DNA of 64,000 nucleotides. Source: Natronomonas pharaonis DSM 2160. Lineage in GTDB: Archaea > Halobacteriota > Halobacteria > Halobacteriales > Haloarculaceae. This document shows positions 40,232-56,949 of this stretch, in pieces. The number at the start of each line of letters is the position of its first letter. The stretch's first letter is position 1. The notes beneath the pieces are model-generated. The model had not been told where the DNA came from and did no database searches. It saw only the letters and a program-made list of their open reading frames with translations. The translations under genes were made by a program, and so were the position numbers. The stretch lies in assembly GCF_000026045.1 (NCBI RefSeq), contig NC_007426.1:248001-312000 (forward strand), written 5' to 3'.

Positions 40232-40541
40232 GTCCGGGCGGATATTTCGAACCCCCTCGTTTCGTGTGGATATGGGGCAAATACCGCTGGTTATGGGTTT
40301 CCCGGAGTACCGGCAATCGCCTCGAAATCCCCTTTTAGCGCCTCAGTTGTCTGTAATCGACCGCACGTGATTGTGTCACGAATGGGGTCGGCGGAGAGTG
40401 TCAGTCGGTTGGTTCCATCCGAAACGGTGGTCCGGTGGCGGATACCGAACCCCAGACGCGGTCAGTTTTTATTGTTTCCGTGCCGGTGTCCGTTCCGAGC
40501 GGCCCGTAACTTTCACCGCCCCGCCCGTCCAACCGCCGGGC
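40232..40541. other. 310-bp intergenic region, no gene seen
   Basis: Contains an AT-rich TTTTTATT near 40465-40472, which could be a promoter element with a leader of about 45 nt before the RidA start, and a CCCCTTTTAGC T-run near 40331-40341 that could end the helicase transcript. No short frame with an RBS or well-placed TATA box was found. Confidence 0.35.
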
Positions 40542-50795: not shown

Positions 50796-51920
50796 ATGGC
50801 GGACGACGACATGCTCTCGTGGGACGAGTCCGTCTTCCGCGACGAGGGCGTCCTCGAGCTCGACTACCTCCCGGAGGCGTTTCTCCACCGCGACGAGCAG
50901 ATGGAGACGCTCAAGTACGCGCTCCGACCGGCCGTCCGGGGCTCCCGTCCGCTAAACGTAATGGCACGGGGACCGCCCGGAACCGGGAAAACCACCGCCG
51001 TCCAGAAGCTCTTCGACGAGCTGGCCGGCGTCGGCGGTGTCGAAACCGTTCGCGTGAACTGTCAGGTCGACTCGACGCGGTATGCCGTCTTTTCACGGCT
51101 CTTCGAGAGCCTCTTCGAGTACGAGCCACCTGCTTCCGGCGTCTCATTCAACAAGCTGTTCGGACAGATTACCAACCGGCTCGTTGAGGACGACGACGTG
51201 CTCGTAGTTGCGCTCGACGACGTTAATTACCTATTTTACGAGAGCGAGGCCTCGGATACGCTGTACTCGCTGCTTCGCGCCCACGAGAGTCACTCGGGGG
51301 CGAAAATCGGCGTCATCGTCGTCTCCTCGGACCTCGATTTGAACGTCATCGAAGAACTCGACGGCCGCGTACAGTCGGTCTTCCGCCCGGAAGACGTCTA
51401 CTTTTCGGCCTACGGCGAGCGAGCGATAGCCGACATCCTCTCCGAGCGGGTCGAGCGCGGCTTCCGGGAAGGGGCGGTCAGCGCACGCGTCCTCGACCGT
51501 GTCGCCGAGCACACCGCCGACAGCGGCGGCGACCTCCGGGTCGGCATCGACCTGCTGCGACGTGCCGGGCTGAACGCCGAGTTCCGTGGGTCGACAGAGG
51601 TCGCTGTTGCGGATGTGGATACGGCCTACGAGAAGGCGAAATACATCCATCTCTCGCGCCGCCTGCAGGGCCTTTCGGAATCCGAGGCCGCGCTGGTGCG
51701 AGTGCTGACAGACCACGATGGCGAGCGAGCGGGGGCGGTCTACGAGGCCTTCAGCGAAGAGACGGAACTCGGCTACACCCGATACTCCGAGATTGTCAAC
51801 AAACTCGAACAGGTCGGCGTCGTCGACGCCGAGTACACGAACGTCGATGGGAGGGGCCGGTCCCGGGAGCTGTCGCTGGCCTACGACGCGGACGCGGTGC
51901 TGGAACGGTTAGAAGAGTAG
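50796..51920 (+). CDS. Orc1/Cdc6-family replication initiator, Cdc6-2-type lineage
   Basis: A 374-residue AAA+ protein. Walker A is GPPGTGKTT (59-67). Walker B is LVVALDDVN (136-144), with Asp in place of the usual catalytic Glu. Sensor-1-like VVSSDLDLNVIEELDGRVQSVF follows, then lid and C-terminal winged helix (about 300-374). Compared with the Orc1 at 55234 it lacks the long acidic N-terminus and looks like the second, widely conserved euryarchaeal paralogue. The start at 50796 (MADDDMLSWDESVF) excludes an unconserved upstream extension. Whether it binds this origin or is regulatory is unknown. Confidence 0.93.
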   Translation: MADDDMLSWDESVFRDEGVLELDYLPEAFLHRDEQMETLKYALRPAVRGSRPLNVMARGPPGTGKTTAVQKLFDELAGVGGVETVRVNCQVDSTRYAVFSRLFESLFEYEPPASGVSFNKLFGQITNRLVEDDDVLVVALDDVNYLFYESEASDTLYSLLRAHESHSGAKIGVIVVSSDLDLNVIEELDGRVQSVFRPEDVYFSAYGERAIADILSERVERGFREGAVSARVLDRVAEHTADSGGDLRVGIDLLRRAGLNAEFRGSTEVAVADVDTAYEKAKYIHLSRRLQGLSESEAALVRVLTDHDGERAGAVYEAFSEETELGYTRYSEIVNKLEQVGVVDAEYTNVDGRGRSRELSLAYDADAVLERLEE

Positions 51921-51963: not shown

Positions 51964-52944
51964 CTACCGTTCGTCCGGGTCGTCGCCCATCCACTGTTCG
52001 GGGACCTGAATGACGTACCGGCCGTTCTCTTGGAGCGCAATGATATACTCCTCGCGGTCGTACAGCTCCATCAGATTCAGTTCGTACTGGCCCGGTTCGA
52101 CGATTTTTATCGACTCGAACTGCTCGTTGAGTTGCTCACGGAGCGCCGCGAGGTCGGGTTGGTCGTCGTCCGGAGAGCTGGCCGACGTTGTATCGGCGTC
52201 TGCCTCCGGTGGTGTGTCGGAGGAAGCAGACGGTTCGTCGTGGGAGACAGGTTCTTCGGGGGGAGATGCCGTGGTATCAGTGTCCGTCGGCGACGGGTCA
52301 GAACGGGCCACCGCGTTGAGTTCATCGGGCGAGACAACGTCGCTCCGGGCGGTCGCCTGCGCGCTGTTTTCGCCAGCGCTGTCGTCGAGAATCTCGCTGT
52401 CGCGCGCATCGTCTCCACTGGAAGCGGAGGGGTCAGACGCCCCAGAGGGCGGCGACTCGCCGGCCTCCGAAGCGTCGGAATCGCTGCCCGACCAGTTGCC
52501 CGGCCACTCCGCCTCCGGGTCAGGACCGGAACCGGAATTAGAATCGGTGTCGGACCCGGCTGTTCCGGCGGCCGGTTCTGTCGAAGCGCTGGAAGAGGAA
52601 GGGGTTTCGAGGTCATCACCGGTAGGAGCCTCGGCGTCGGAGGCAGTGTTTGTCGTTCCGGCTGTCTCGTCGGGAGCCGGCTGTTCCGAAGAGGAAACCA
52701 AATCGCGGACTCGCGTCGTTGCGCGCCCGACAGTTTCGGCGACTGACGATGTCGTCGAATCAGCGGCCGGGGGTTCCGGCGGTTCCTCGTCGGGAGGACT
52801 GGAGTCACCGTCGGTGGGGTCGGAAAGCGCCTCCTCGCTGGGGCGGAACTGGAACTTGTTGCCGCCACACTCCGGACAGCCCGAGAGCATCTCCTTGGAG
52901 CCGTCTTCGAACGTGTGACCGCAGCCAGTACACTGGTGGGGCAT
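51964..52944 (-). CDS. arvC: ArvC/OapC zinc-ribbon protein
   Basis: A 326-residue protein, third gene of the arvA-arvB-arvC (oapABC) operon. The N-terminal zinc ribbon is C5-x2-C8...C23-x2-C26 (QCTGCGHTFEDGSKEML). A disordered Ser/Asp/Glu/Pro/Thr linker runs from about 40 to 262. A conserved C-terminal domain (264-326) follows: LREQLNEQFESIKIVEPGQYELNLMELYDREEYIIALQENGRYVIQVPEQW. The ends are conserved across haloarchaea while the linker varies. It is thought to act with the GTPase ArvA in extracellular vesicle formation. Confidence 0.9.
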   Translation of the reverse strand: MPHQCTGCGHTFEDGSKEMLSGCPECGGNKFQFRPSEEALSDPTDGDSSPPDEEPPEPPAADSTTSSVAETVGRATTRVRDLVSSSEQPAPDETAGTTNTASDAEAPTGDDLETPSSSSASTEPAAGTAGSDTDSNSGSGPDPEAEWPGNWSGSDSDASEAGESPPSGASDPSASSGDDARDSEILDDSAGENSAQATARSDVVSPDELNAVARSDPSPTDTDTTASPPEEPVSHDEPSASSDTPPEADADTTSASSPDDDQPDLAALREQLNEQFESIKIVEPGQYELNLMELYDREEYIIALQENGRYVIQVPEQWMGDDPDER

Positions 52945-52963: not shown

Positions 52964-53365
52964 TTATTTCCGCGTTATCAGCGTGCTGATGAGTGTTTCG
53001 TCCTTGTGGAGCGTCTCGATGCGGTTTGCGGGACCGATGACGGTGAGTTTGTTCGAGTCGTCTTTGCCCATGATGCGGCCGAGAAGGCCGCTGCCGCCGC
53101 TTTCCTCGCCAGGGTATGTCTCTATCTCGATGCCGGTGAACCCGTCGGGGTTGATTTCCGACATCGTGACCTCGATGAGTTTCGACTCCTCGTCGGGTTC
53201 GAGGCCCTGTTCGAGGATGACGATGTTGCCGTCGTGGACGCCGTCGAGGATGAGCCGTATCTTCTCCATGGTGCGCATCCCCTCCATCCGCTCGGCGCTT
53301 ATCATGTCGATCTGAATGCCGTCGTCGTCCGGCCCATCGCCGTCGTCGGCTGTTATCTCAGGCAT
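52964..53365 (-). CDS. arvB: ArvB/OapB (DUF2073) protein
   Basis: A 133-residue protein with the DUF2073 pattern: IQIDMISAERMEGMRTMEKIRLILDGVHDGNIVILEQGLEPDEE, then GFTGIEIETYP and VIGPANRIETLHKDETLISTLI. DUF2073 genes lie next to the Era-like GTPase throughout Halobacteria and some other Euryarchaeota. It starts 4 bp after the arvA stop and ends 19 bp before arvC. Probably a partner of the GTPase. Confidence 0.92.
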   Translation of the reverse strand: MPEITADDGDGPDDDGIQIDMISAERMEGMRTMEKIRLILDGVHDGNIVILEQGLEPDEESKLIEVTMSEINPDGFTGIEIETYPGEESGGSGLLGRIMGKDDSNKLTVIGPANRIETLHKDETLISTLITRK

Positions 53366-53369
53366 GGTA

Positions 53370-54011
53370 TCACCCGAAGTACTCCGCGATCTTGTCGTAG
53401 ACCTCGTCCATGTTGTCGCCTTCCAGCGCCGAAAGCGGGACGGTCTCGTGCTGCGGGAAGGCGTTGCTGATGCGCTGGACGTTCGCATCTTCGAGGTCAA
53501 TCTTGTTGGCGAATATCAGCACGGGCAGGTCCTGACTTTCGATGATACCGATGAGCATCGTGTTGACCTGCGTGAACGGGTCTTCGGTGGCATCGAGGAC
53601 GTAAATAACGCCGTCGACATCCTCTCGGAGCCAGTGCATCGCCTCGGCGACACCTTCGGTCGCCTCTCTGGAGCGGCGGACGGCGTCGTCCTTGTCGATG
53701 TCGTGGTCAAGGAACTCCTTGTAGTCGACTTTGGTCGTCACACCTGGTGTGTCGACGACATCGATGGTGACCGACTTGCCGTTGCGCTTGATTTCGACGT
53801 TTTCCTTCCTGCGCGCGCGCCGTGTCTCGTGTGGCACGTGGCTTTCTGGACCGACGGCGTCGCCAGTCCAGTCACGCGTGATACGGTTTGCGAGAGTCGT
53901 TTTGCCGGCGTTCGGCGGTCCATAGATGCCGATACGCTTGGTTTCGTCGCCCGCAAACAGACTCGATGTCGCCCGCGAGATGCTCGATTTGAGGTCTGTT
54001 AACAGTCCCAT
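53370..54011 (-). CDS. arvA: ArvA/OapA Era-like small GTPase
   Basis: A 213-residue GTPase. G1 is GPPNAGKTT (31-39), G3 DTPG within VVDTPGVTTKVDY, G4 NKID and G5 SALEG. An amphipathic N-terminal helix (LLTDLKSSISRATSSLF) could touch the membrane. In Haloferax volcanii the homologue is required for extracellular vesicle production. The gene sits between two orc genes and faces away from the origin. A GGGAGG ribosome binding site lies 5 nt before the ATG, and a leader dyad precedes it. Confidence 0.95.
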   Translation of the reverse strand: MGLLTDLKSSISRATSSLFAGDETKRIGIYGPPNAGKTTLANRITRDWTGDAVGPESHVPHETRRARRKENVEIKRNGKSVTIDVVDTPGVTTKVDYKEFLDHDIDKDDAVRRSREATEGVAEAMHWLREDVDGVIYVLDATEDPFTQVNTMLIGIIESQDLPVLIFANKIDLEDANVQRISNAFPQHETVPLSALEGDNMDEVYDKIAEYFG

Positions 54012-54281: not shown

Positions 54282-54310
54282 ACCCCCCCACCCCTTCGTT
54301 TCAACTGGAG
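54282..54310 (-). other. origin recognition box (ORB), leftward
   Basis: The minus strand reads CTCCAGTTGAAACGAAGGGG followed by a G-rich end. It is 27/29 identical to the box at 54682 in inverted orientation and carries the halophile-type G-string. Confidence 0.85.
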
Positions 54311-54345
54311 CGGAGAAATGGAGGGGGAGGGGGAGCGCTGGAGTG

Positions 54346-54655
54346 GGTGAACTCATAGTAGAATAAATAGCGTTTAACGTAGCTACTACTGTACTCTCTG
54401 GAATAACCGAGGAAGAGTGTATCGGTAAGCTAGTTTAGATTGGAGACCTAGCCGGGATAGACTAGATATGCTGCTGTATCTAGTACTCACTAGTAATTTT
54501 CTACTACTACTAGCAACATAGCGAAACACAGCGAAACACAGCGATTACTAGCCTATAACAACCATAGAAATATAAACAGAATCGTATTTCTTTGTCGTAC
54601 GGATTTGGTTACTTCCTACAGGTAATAAAGGTTTCTCAACTAGAACGCCTCTCGT
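54346..54655. other. AT-rich duplex-unwinding region
   Basis: About 310 bp clearly richer in A/T than the rest of the window, with many TAGTA/CTAGTA elements, bracketed by the inverted boxes. Confidence 0.65.
54520..54544 (+). repeat. 10-bp tandem repeat in AT-rich region
   Basis: GCGAAACACA occurs twice in tandem (54521-54540), followed by GCGA. Confidence 0.7.
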
Positions 54656-54657
54656 CT

Positions 54658-54679
54658 ACCCCTCCCCACCCCTTTCAAC
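54658..54679 (-). other. degenerate ORB half-site
   Basis: The minus strand reads GTTGAAAGGGGTGGGGAGGG, an ORB with the CGAA spacer missing. It is placed back to back with the rightward box 3 bp away. Confidence 0.5.
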
Positions 54680-54681
54680 GG

Positions 54682-54710
54682 CTCCAGTCGAAACGAAGGG
54701 GTGTGGGGGT
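54682..54710 (+). other. origin recognition box (ORB), rightward
   Basis: CTCCAGTCGAAACGAAGGGG followed by TGTGGGGGT. It differs from the reverse complement of the box at 54282 at two positions. Confidence 0.85.
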
Positions 54711-54878
54711 AACCACCCTTGTTTCGTCTGCATCAACTGGAGATGTGACTTTCCCGACTTTCCTGGCCCGCTGGATTCTCTCGACCCCACTCTCTCGTTC
54801 CCCGTGTTTCACGTCGCCGCCCCCTCGGCACTGGCCCAGCGTCTCGGCGTCCGGTCTCTCAGCATCCGACTTGTTTCT

Positions 54879-54955: not shown

Positions 54956-55181
54956 GATATTATGGCGGAGCTCCCGCCCGGTGGGGGGCTTCGGTCGGCA
55001 CGTCGGCGTCCGGGTGCTCGAAGTCGGGGCTCCCAATCTCTTTGCCGACCTCATCAAAAAACTTAATACCGAACTCGACCATCGGTTCGACTGCATCAAG
55101 TGGACATCCGTTTGCACGCCCTCCACCGAATCAGGGCCTCTACCCCCTGTATTCTTTCCATTCGCTCGATGCGGGGTGGTT

Positions 55182-55202
55182 TTCCAATTGAAACGGTGGG
55201 GT
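55182..55202 (+). other. origin recognition box (ORB), right side
   Basis: TTCCAATTGAAACGGTGGGG matches the ORB core with a shorter G-string. It lies 31 bp before the orc1 ATG and so may link Orc binding to orc1 expression. Confidence 0.65.
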
Positions 55203-55233: not shown

Positions 55234-56949
55234 ATGACAAACGACGACACGGCATCGGAACCCAGGACGCAAGATCGGCTCGAGCGAGGGAGTGGCGACA
55301 CGGACGAAGACAGCGAAGACACTGTGGACATCGACACAGACACCGAGGGTAGCGATGACGTTGCTACCCCGTCGCAGTCGTCGGGTTCTCCAGTCGAAAC
55401 TGGGGGGTTCTCCGAGGATGAATCCGACTCGGAGCGGACCGACTCCGTGCCGACGGGCTCCGAACACGCCCGAAACGTTGATGGCTTCTCCGGTGACATC
55501 GACCTCGAAGACCTCGACCTCGCTCCGGACGATGAAACCGAAGAAGACGGCGAGGCCGACGAAGCATCAAGAGGGCTCTTCGACGACCTTCTGGAAGGAG
55601 AGCCGATATTCGAGAACAAAGAAGTCCTCCGGCCGTCCTACACGCCGCACAAACTCCCCCACCGCGAAGAGCAGATAAACAACATGGCGACGATTCTGGT
55701 CACTGCCCTTCGCGGGGAGACGCCGTCCAACATCCTCATTTACGGAAAGACAGGGACCGGAAAGACCGCCAGCGCGAAGTTCGTCAGCGAGGAACTGGAG
55801 ACGACCTCACAAAAGTACGAGGTCCCCTGTGAGGTGCAGTACATCAACTGCGAGGTGACAGATACGCAGTATCGCGTGCTCGCCCAACTCGCAAACAAGT
55901 TCATCGAAAAAAACGAGGCCTACATCGAGTCCCGACTCGATGAACTCGAAGCCCTCAGAGACCGGGCTGCAGAGGACCCTGCTGCCCTCGACGACACCGA
56001 GTTCGATAGCGTCGCCGCCGTCGAAGCCGAAATCGACACTCTCGAAACTGACCTCGAGGAGTTCGACCCTGTCCCGATGACCGGCTGGCCGACAGACCGC
56101 GTCTACTCGACGTTCTTCGACGCCGTCGACTACCACGAGCGGGTCGTCGTCATCATGCTCGACGAGATCGACAAGCTCGTCGAAAAATCCGGCGACGACA
56201 CGCTGTATAACCTCTCGCGGATGAACTCCGAGCTTTCGAACTCCCGGGTCTCGATTATGGGCATCTCCAACGACCTCAAGTTCACCGACTTCCTCGACCC
56301 CCGAGTCAAATCGAGCCTCGGCGAGGAGGAAATCGTCTTCCCGCCGTACGACGCGACCCAGCTCCGCGATATCCTCCAACACCGCGCGGAAATCGCGTTC
56401 AAGCCGGACACCCTCTCCGATGATGTCATCCCGCTGTGTGCGGCCTTCGCCGCCCAGGAACACGGTGATGCCCGGCGGGCGCTCGATTTGCTCCGGACGG
56501 CCGGCGAACTCGCCGAACGGGACCGCACCGAGACTATCACTGAAAAGCATGTCCGCAAAGCACAGGAAAAAATCGAGCTGGACCGCGTCGTCGAGGTCGT
56601 CAGGACGCTGCCGACACAGTCGAAGCTCGTTCTCTATGCGACCATCCTGTTGGAGAAAAACGGCGTCCACAACATCAACACCGGCGAGGTGTTCAACATC
56701 TACAAGCGGCTCTGTGAGGAGATCGACGCCGACGTGCTCACCCAGCGACGGGTGACCGACCTCATAAGCGAACTCGACATGCTCGGCATCGTCAACGCCG
56801 TTGTCGTCTCGAAGGGTCGCTACGGCCGCACCAAGGAAATCAGCCTCTCGGTTCCGTTGGACGAAACCGAGGCCGTGCTACTGTCGGACTCCCGCGTCGG
56901 CGAGGTAGAGGACGCACAGCCGTTCGTGCAGGCGCGGTTCGACAACTGA
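55234..56949 (+). CDS. orc1: Orc1/Cdc6 origin-recognition initiator
   Basis: A 571-residue AAA+ initiator that binds ORBs and recruits MCM. An acidic disordered N-terminus (1-125) is unusually long. Walker A is GKTGTGKT (171-178), Walker B VVVIMLDEID (304-313), and sensor 1 is MGISNDLKF. A charged helical insertion (about 225-280) interrupts the AAA+ core. The C-terminal winged helix (about 470-571) includes INTGEVFNIYKRLCEEI. Located directly at the origin as in other haloarchaea. A fifth ORB-like sequence lies within its own coding region at 55388. Confidence 0.97.
   Translation: MTNDDTASEPRTQDRLERGSGDTDEDSEDTVDIDTDTEGSDDVATPSQSSGSPVETGGFSEDESDSERTDSVPTGSEHARNVDGFSGDIDLEDLDLAPDDETEEDGEADEASRGLFDDLLEGEPIFENKEVLRPSYTPHKLPHREEQINNMATILVTALRGETPSNILIYGKTGTGKTASAKFVSEELETTSQKYEVPCEVQYINCEVTDTQYRVLAQLANKFIEKNEAYIESRLDELEALRDRAAEDPAALDDTEFDSVAAVEAEIDTLETDLEEFDPVPMTGWPTDRVYSTFFDAVDYHERVVVIMLDEIDKLVEKSGDDTLYNLSRMNSELSNSRVSIMGISNDLKFTDFLDPRVKSSLGEEEIVFPPYDATQLRDILQHRAEIAFKPDTLSDDVIPLCAAFAAQEHGDARRALDLLRTAGELAERDRTETITEKHVRKAQEKIELDRVVEVVRTLPTQSKLVLYATILLEKNGVHNINTGEVFNIYKRLCEEIDADVLTQRRVTDLISELDMLGIVNAVVVSKGRYGRTKEISLSVPLDETEAVLLSDSRVGEVEDAQPFVQARFDN
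55388..55407 (+). other. ORB-like sequence inside orc1
   Basis: CTCCAGTCGAAACTGGGGGG shares the first 13 bases with the ORB at 54682 and has a G-string. It encodes about residues 52-58 (SPVETGG) in the disordered N-terminus of Orc1. Confidence 0.55.

Follow-up and report, generated by a model that had tools for sequence, protein, structure and literature searches.

Genes and boxes at the orc1 locus

Within the window, the whole 64-kb stretch of DNA that was analysed, a 1.2-kb intergenic region separates the gene for an Era-like GTPase (minus strand) from an orc1/cdc6 gene (plus strand). The orc1/cdc6 gene (55234..56949, plus strand) encodes an initiator of the oriC1 type, matching NF001625 with 653 bits (cut-off 501) and containing Cdc6_C and Cdc6_lid domains. 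Its best PDB match is Cdc6-1 of S. solfataricus (2qby chain A, E 9.5e-108); Sulfolobus (2qby) and Aeropyrum (2v1u) supply the nearest solved relatives, both archaeal Cdc6/Orc1 initiators. The most similar Orc1 found, at 92% identity, comes from a Haloarculaceae metagenome bin. The Era-like GTPase (53370..54011, minus strand) is identified by an MMR_HSR1 match and, through synteny with OapB and OapC, stands in the position of origin-associated protein A; from this position we take it to be a putative OapA. The origin-associated protein OapB (52964..53365, minus strand; PF09846, E 1.9e-42) and the origin-associated zinc-ribbon protein OapC (51964..52944, minus strand; PF09845, E 1.2e-28) both exceed Pfam cut-offs, while a second Orc1-type gene, Orc2-like (50796..51920, plus strand; NF001626, 712 bits, cut-off 417), lies 2.4 kb from the left ORB. 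Judged by these matches, the set of oapA-like, oapB, oapC and orc genes is a syntenic haloarchaeal oriC1 neighbourhood.

The intergenic region contains two origin boxes (ORBs) with the halophile G-string, their starts 392 bp apart. The left ORB (54282..54310, minus strand), reading CTCCAGTTGAAACGAAGGGGTGGGGGGGT in box orientation, is the equivalent of the essential site I in Haloarcula hispanica, and the right ORB (54682..54710, plus strand), reading CTCCAGTCGAAACGAAGGGGTGTGGGGGT and conserved in relatives, is the equivalent of site II. A first-pass annotation had reported two 29-bp boxes identical at 27 positions, and recomputation returned the same positions and identity. The outward orientation claimed there, long G-string included, agrees with the location of both G-strings at the outer ends, and the AT-rich region of about 310 bp placed between the boxes corresponds to a core of 316 bp (54340..54655) with 39.9% GC, against 65.0% for the window. 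By its composition this core is the putative duplex-unwinding region, and inside it, at 54348, lie the 300 bp with the lowest GC of any such stretch in 400 kb of chromosome. The core also holds 10-bp repeats AGCGAAACAC in tandem near 54520 (54520-54543), and CTAG/CTACTA words are numerous in it.

The inverted similarity around the core is longer than the first-pass annotation gave, with 52-nt arms that are 79% complementary, because G-rich repeats sit directly inside each ORB. This inner G-rich inverted repeat, imperfect and absent from the earlier account, comprises GGAGGGGGAGGGGG at 54320..54333 (plus strand) and a repeat at 54659..54672 (minus strand; C-rich when read on the plus strand). 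The two correspond to enhancer sites III and IV, respectively, of H. hispanica oriC1. Both were assigned from their place in the inverted repeat, recovered by inverted-repeat search, and from the published enhancer function in H. hispanica.

Further conserved features occupy the predicted orc1 promoter and leader. A TATA-like box (CTTAATA, 55062..55068, plus strand), the putative promoter box, occupies the same aligned place upstream of a conserved element in most relatives. The element (TTCGWCTGCATCAASTGGA), located about 20 bp past this box and present at the orc1 promoter in most haloarchaea, reads TTCGACTGCATCAAGTGGA here (55086..55104, plus strand) and lies at the expected transcription start, 92-105 bp before a third ORB in 35 of 41 loci. 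This third box, ORB3 (55182..55202, plus strand), was recognised by pattern match and comparison with relatives; it has no long G-string and is situated between the predicted transcription start and the orc1 ATG. The order is conserved, running from the TATA-like box through the TTCGWCTGCATCAASTGGA element and ORB3, about 96-97 bp on, to the ATG. A genome search for exact copies of the element found only two, the one at 55086-55104 and a second (TTCGTCTGCATCAACTGGA; 54723..54741, plus strand) 41 bp past the right ORB start, an offset that is the same in seven same-genus relatives. The element is probably not the crenarchaeal ucm, from which it differs in position and lineage. A fourth, ORB-like site with one mismatch to the pattern lies within the orc1 coding sequence (55388..55408, plus strand), where it codes for SPVETGG; its counterparts in close relatives code for SPVETEG. 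The first-pass annotation named neither the promoter element nor the third and fourth ORBs.

The fixed promoter layout suggests, from its anatomy, that orc1 may be autoregulated, and negative autoregulation through ORB3 would be the simplest reading. Orc2 is a candidate binder of the promoter element. No description of orc1 autoregulation in haloarchaea was found in the main texts of the open-licence papers searched.

Interpretation of the locus as oriC1

Comparison with relatives revealed an outward-facing inverted ORB pair, 180-607 bp apart, in 38 of 41 orc1 loci, with the long G-string on 70 of the 76 ORB ends in these paired loci and a mean core GC of 0.40. In the remaining three loci, the pair may be absent just from the flank examined. 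The inner G-rich inverted repeat is found in most, not all, haloarchaea, and across these relatives only 42 of 76 arms were strong.

The first-pass annotation had recognised the architecture expected of the main haloarchaeal origin, and this is borne out by the inverted G-string ORBs, the AT-rich core, the adjacent oriC1-type orc1, the oapA/B/C neighbourhood and the conservation in relatives; together with the outer placement of the G-strings and the inner G-rich repeat, the sequence features by which a haloarchaeal oriC1 is recognised are all present. The sequences, orientation, composition, gene neighbourhood and conservation are those of oriC1, and the locus is almost certainly the ancestral main chromosomal origin, with Orc1 acting at the inverted ORBs. 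The origin itself is a further example of the well-studied haloarchaeal oriC1 class, useful mainly for annotation.

Orc1 binding, loading, origin firing and enhancer action at the locus we infer from homologues, the mechanism following from the same layout in H. hispanica and from the solved archaeal Orc1 relatives. Orc1 from the adjacent gene would bind the two inverted ORBs, reading the TCCA..TGAAAC part with its winged helix and the G-string with its AAA+ domain, and this two-domain reading would fix opposite polarity on the two sides of the core. MCM would then be loaded and the AT-rich core opened, with the inner G-rich repeats raising origin efficiency. Through ORB3 in the orc1 leader and the promoter element, orc1 would probably come under the control of Orc1 or a partner.

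Base composition along the chromosome agrees weakly with an origin at this place. GC skew passes from mostly positive to mostly negative, changing sign within about 0-35 kb of the locus, and the turning point is broad, with its maximum at 334 kb versus the locus at 302 kb. Bacterial origins usually coincide with a GC-skew minimum, whereas here it is a maximum.

Other orc genes in the genome have ORB-like repeats, and oriC1 need not be the sole or dominant origin. The orc gene in the stretch C2:94554-98684 has several copies of the G-tailed repeat ACACATCGATAGAGGGGTG upstream, and that in C1:1486044-1490147 has a direct pair of the G-tailed repeat ACACCCCTCRTTTCGTCTGTTCTT upstream, both unlike the oriC1 ORB; from their sequences, these sites are likely further origins. 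The presence of at least two such orc genes with distinct repeats (C2:96 kb, C1:1487 kb), together with the occurrence of dormant origins in H. mediterranei (PMC4595724), gives some room for a dormant or relic oriC1 whose architecture is kept while another origin fires in this strain. We regard this as improbable, since the initiator gene is intact and every essential element is conserved and close to perfect, whereas in a relic the G-strings would be expected to decay first.

Even less probable is the proposal that the boxes are mainly a regulatory region of orc1, serving autoregulation or titration and not a start site. The third ORB and the conserved element within the orc1 promoter and leader speak for such a role, but the AT-rich core enclosed by the outward pair lies 500-900 bp upstream of orc1, the regulatory-looking ORB3 sits elsewhere and has no long G-string, and autonomous replication (ARS) tests in H. 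hispanica (PMC3936714) show that the pair and core constitute the origin. A chance or low-complexity likeness, which the G-runs in the boxes might suggest, is refuted: the agreement extends to the non-G part CTCCAGTYGAAACGAAGG, the closest sequence to the 29-mer elsewhere in the 64-kb window differs at 10 positions, the pair is conserved in those 38 of 41 loci, and a strict ORB pattern gave 2-7 matches per genome in 12 genomes, mostly at oriC1 or in the DP1 gene described below, with the reversed pattern matching once in all 12 together.

An ORB pair inside the DP1 gene

A relaxed ORB pattern allowing at most one mismatch produced seven matches in the 2.75-Mb genome, four of them within 1.1 kb of the oriC1 locus, and the reversed pattern produced one. 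All seven fall within 134 kb of the chromosome: four at the origin, one in the DP1 gene and two isolated. One isolated match, at 40252-40270 of the window (C1:288251), closely follows the 3' end of a Hel308-type helicase gene; the other, at C1:378533, falls on the start codon of an ABC-transporter ATPase gene. Their number is close to the background rate.

The remaining match, at C1:244371, lies outside the window, 58 kb from the origin, inside the gene for DP1, the small subunit of DNA polymerase D (NF003116, E 2e-294). It belongs to an outward inverted ORB pair in the coding sequence (C1:244371-244391, minus strand, and C1:244425-244445, plus strand), 3.6 kb before the window start. In this genome the pair is partly decayed, comprising one perfect ORB and a three-mismatch partner at 54 bp, with a third site farther out. 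Among 57 DP1 loci, from haloarchaeal relatives and this genome, an outward pair with at most four mismatches in total was found in 41, at 57 bp start to start in 35 and at 54 bp in six, the genomes being related and the pair statistics therefore not independent. The pair is present, for example, in Haloarcula, Halobaculum, Halosimplex, Halapricum, Natrialba, Natrinema, Natronolimnohabitans and Halococcus; a few other haloarchaeal loci have spacings of 69, 72 or 75 bp, and Haloferax retains a degraded pair at 57 bp. As a control, 150 draws of random 4.2-kb stretches of this genome gave best pair totals of 10-13 mismatches in nearly all cases and a lowest total of 6. No such pair was found in 30 DP1 loci of other members of the phylum (best totals 8-13).

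One DNA word, read on opposite strands at the two sites, gives rise to two unlike peptides, P-S-V-S-T-G and S-P-V-E-T-K/E-G. Within the sites, codons that are rare in the rest of the gene are invariant: GTT in 24/24 cases (4% elsewhere), ACT in 17/17 (4%), GGA in 25/25 (5%) and CCA in 22/22 (5%), with extreme binomial P values that, the genomes being related, are to be taken as no more than orders of magnitude. Between the sites the length is fixed, but the sequence itself varies freely. A protein motif (PSVSTG, SPVETKG) is accordingly rejected as the main cause, differing peptides sharing one DNA word with invariant rare codons; a degenerate pattern coding for the peptides has only three matches in the genome, one of which is DP1. 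Being written in rare codons, the pair is conserved as DNA. DP1 and oriC1 can be as little as a few kb or as much as about 155 kb apart; since the pair in genome G057, at 155 kb, is still perfect, it travels with the gene.

A second origin at this place was likewise considered and rejected. The gap between the sites is only about 33-36 bp with a GC of 0.66 (41 loci), leaving no AT-rich core, and the long halophile G-string is missing: in nearly all loci the sites close with GGGGTC or a similar sequence and lack a second G-run.

The DP1 sites follow the pattern of the oriC1-type ORB rather than that of the repeats next to the genome's other orc genes, which makes Orc1 their likely binder. The favoured role would be to control polD transcription or to titrate Orc1. 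We give about even chances to the broader proposal, drawn from sequence comparison, that Orc1/Cdc6A also binds the DP1 pair and the leader ORB3, coupling origin activity either to polymerase expression or to how much Orc1 is available. The pair lies in an essential polymerase gene and has stayed in register in most of the haloarchaeal families tested; it points to a second job of the initiator and bears on how archaea tie initiation to replisome supply. No description of ORBs in a polymerase gene of haloarchaea was found in the main texts of the open-licence papers searched.

Relation to known systems

The closest described counterpart of the locus is oriC1-cdc6A of H. hispanica (PMC3936714), with inverted G-string ORBs, an inner G-rich repeat, an AT-rich core and the adjacent orc1/cdc6A, all as found here. 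In that species, deleting either ORB impaired autonomous replication, mutation of either G-string abolished it, and the inner G-rich inverted repeat is an enhancer whose mutation weakens replication; the repeat is perfect in H. hispanica, whereas it is imperfect here. ORB3, the promoter element and intragenic ORBs found no mention in the portion of the report at hand (PMC3936714). The locus also resembles the predicted haloarchaeal oriC1 family (PMC3528665) in its Orc1 family, G-string ORB logo and syntenic neighbourhood. That survey searched only intergenic regions beside orc/cdc6 genes, and ORBs in coding sequences such as DP1 would therefore have escaped it. Like the locus here, Sulfolobus oriC1 has inverted ORBs around an AT-rich core, bound there by Orc1-1, but it differs in having no long halophile G-string and in its essential ucm/UBP element, which is crenarchaeal (PMC12141716).

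The DP1 pair bears on why cdc6A of H. hispanica is very hard to delete though oriC1 is dispensable. In the study of that species, deletion of cdc6A proved extremely hard whereas that of oriC1 did not, and a vital role beyond oriC1, perhaps in transcription, was proposed (PMC3936714); the DP1 pair could be part of this unexplained "vital function of Cdc6A outside oriC1". In H. volcanii, orc1 is deletable (PMC6063281). The resistance of cdc6A to deletion in H. hispanica and the deletability of orc1 in H. volcanii, with degraded Haloferax DP1 sites, fit a role of the DP1 pair but do not prove it. An Orc-type protein acting as a transcription regulator is known in Sulfolobus Orc1-2 (PMC9738581). 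Like oriC2D of H. hispanica and datA of E. coli, its functional analogues, the DP1 pair places initiator boxes at a distance from the origin, where they may govern how much initiator is available; oriC2D has 11 ORBs for Cdc6E clustered in an intergenic region (PMC3936714), whereas the DP1 pair consists of two oriC1-type ORBs at fixed spacing within a gene.
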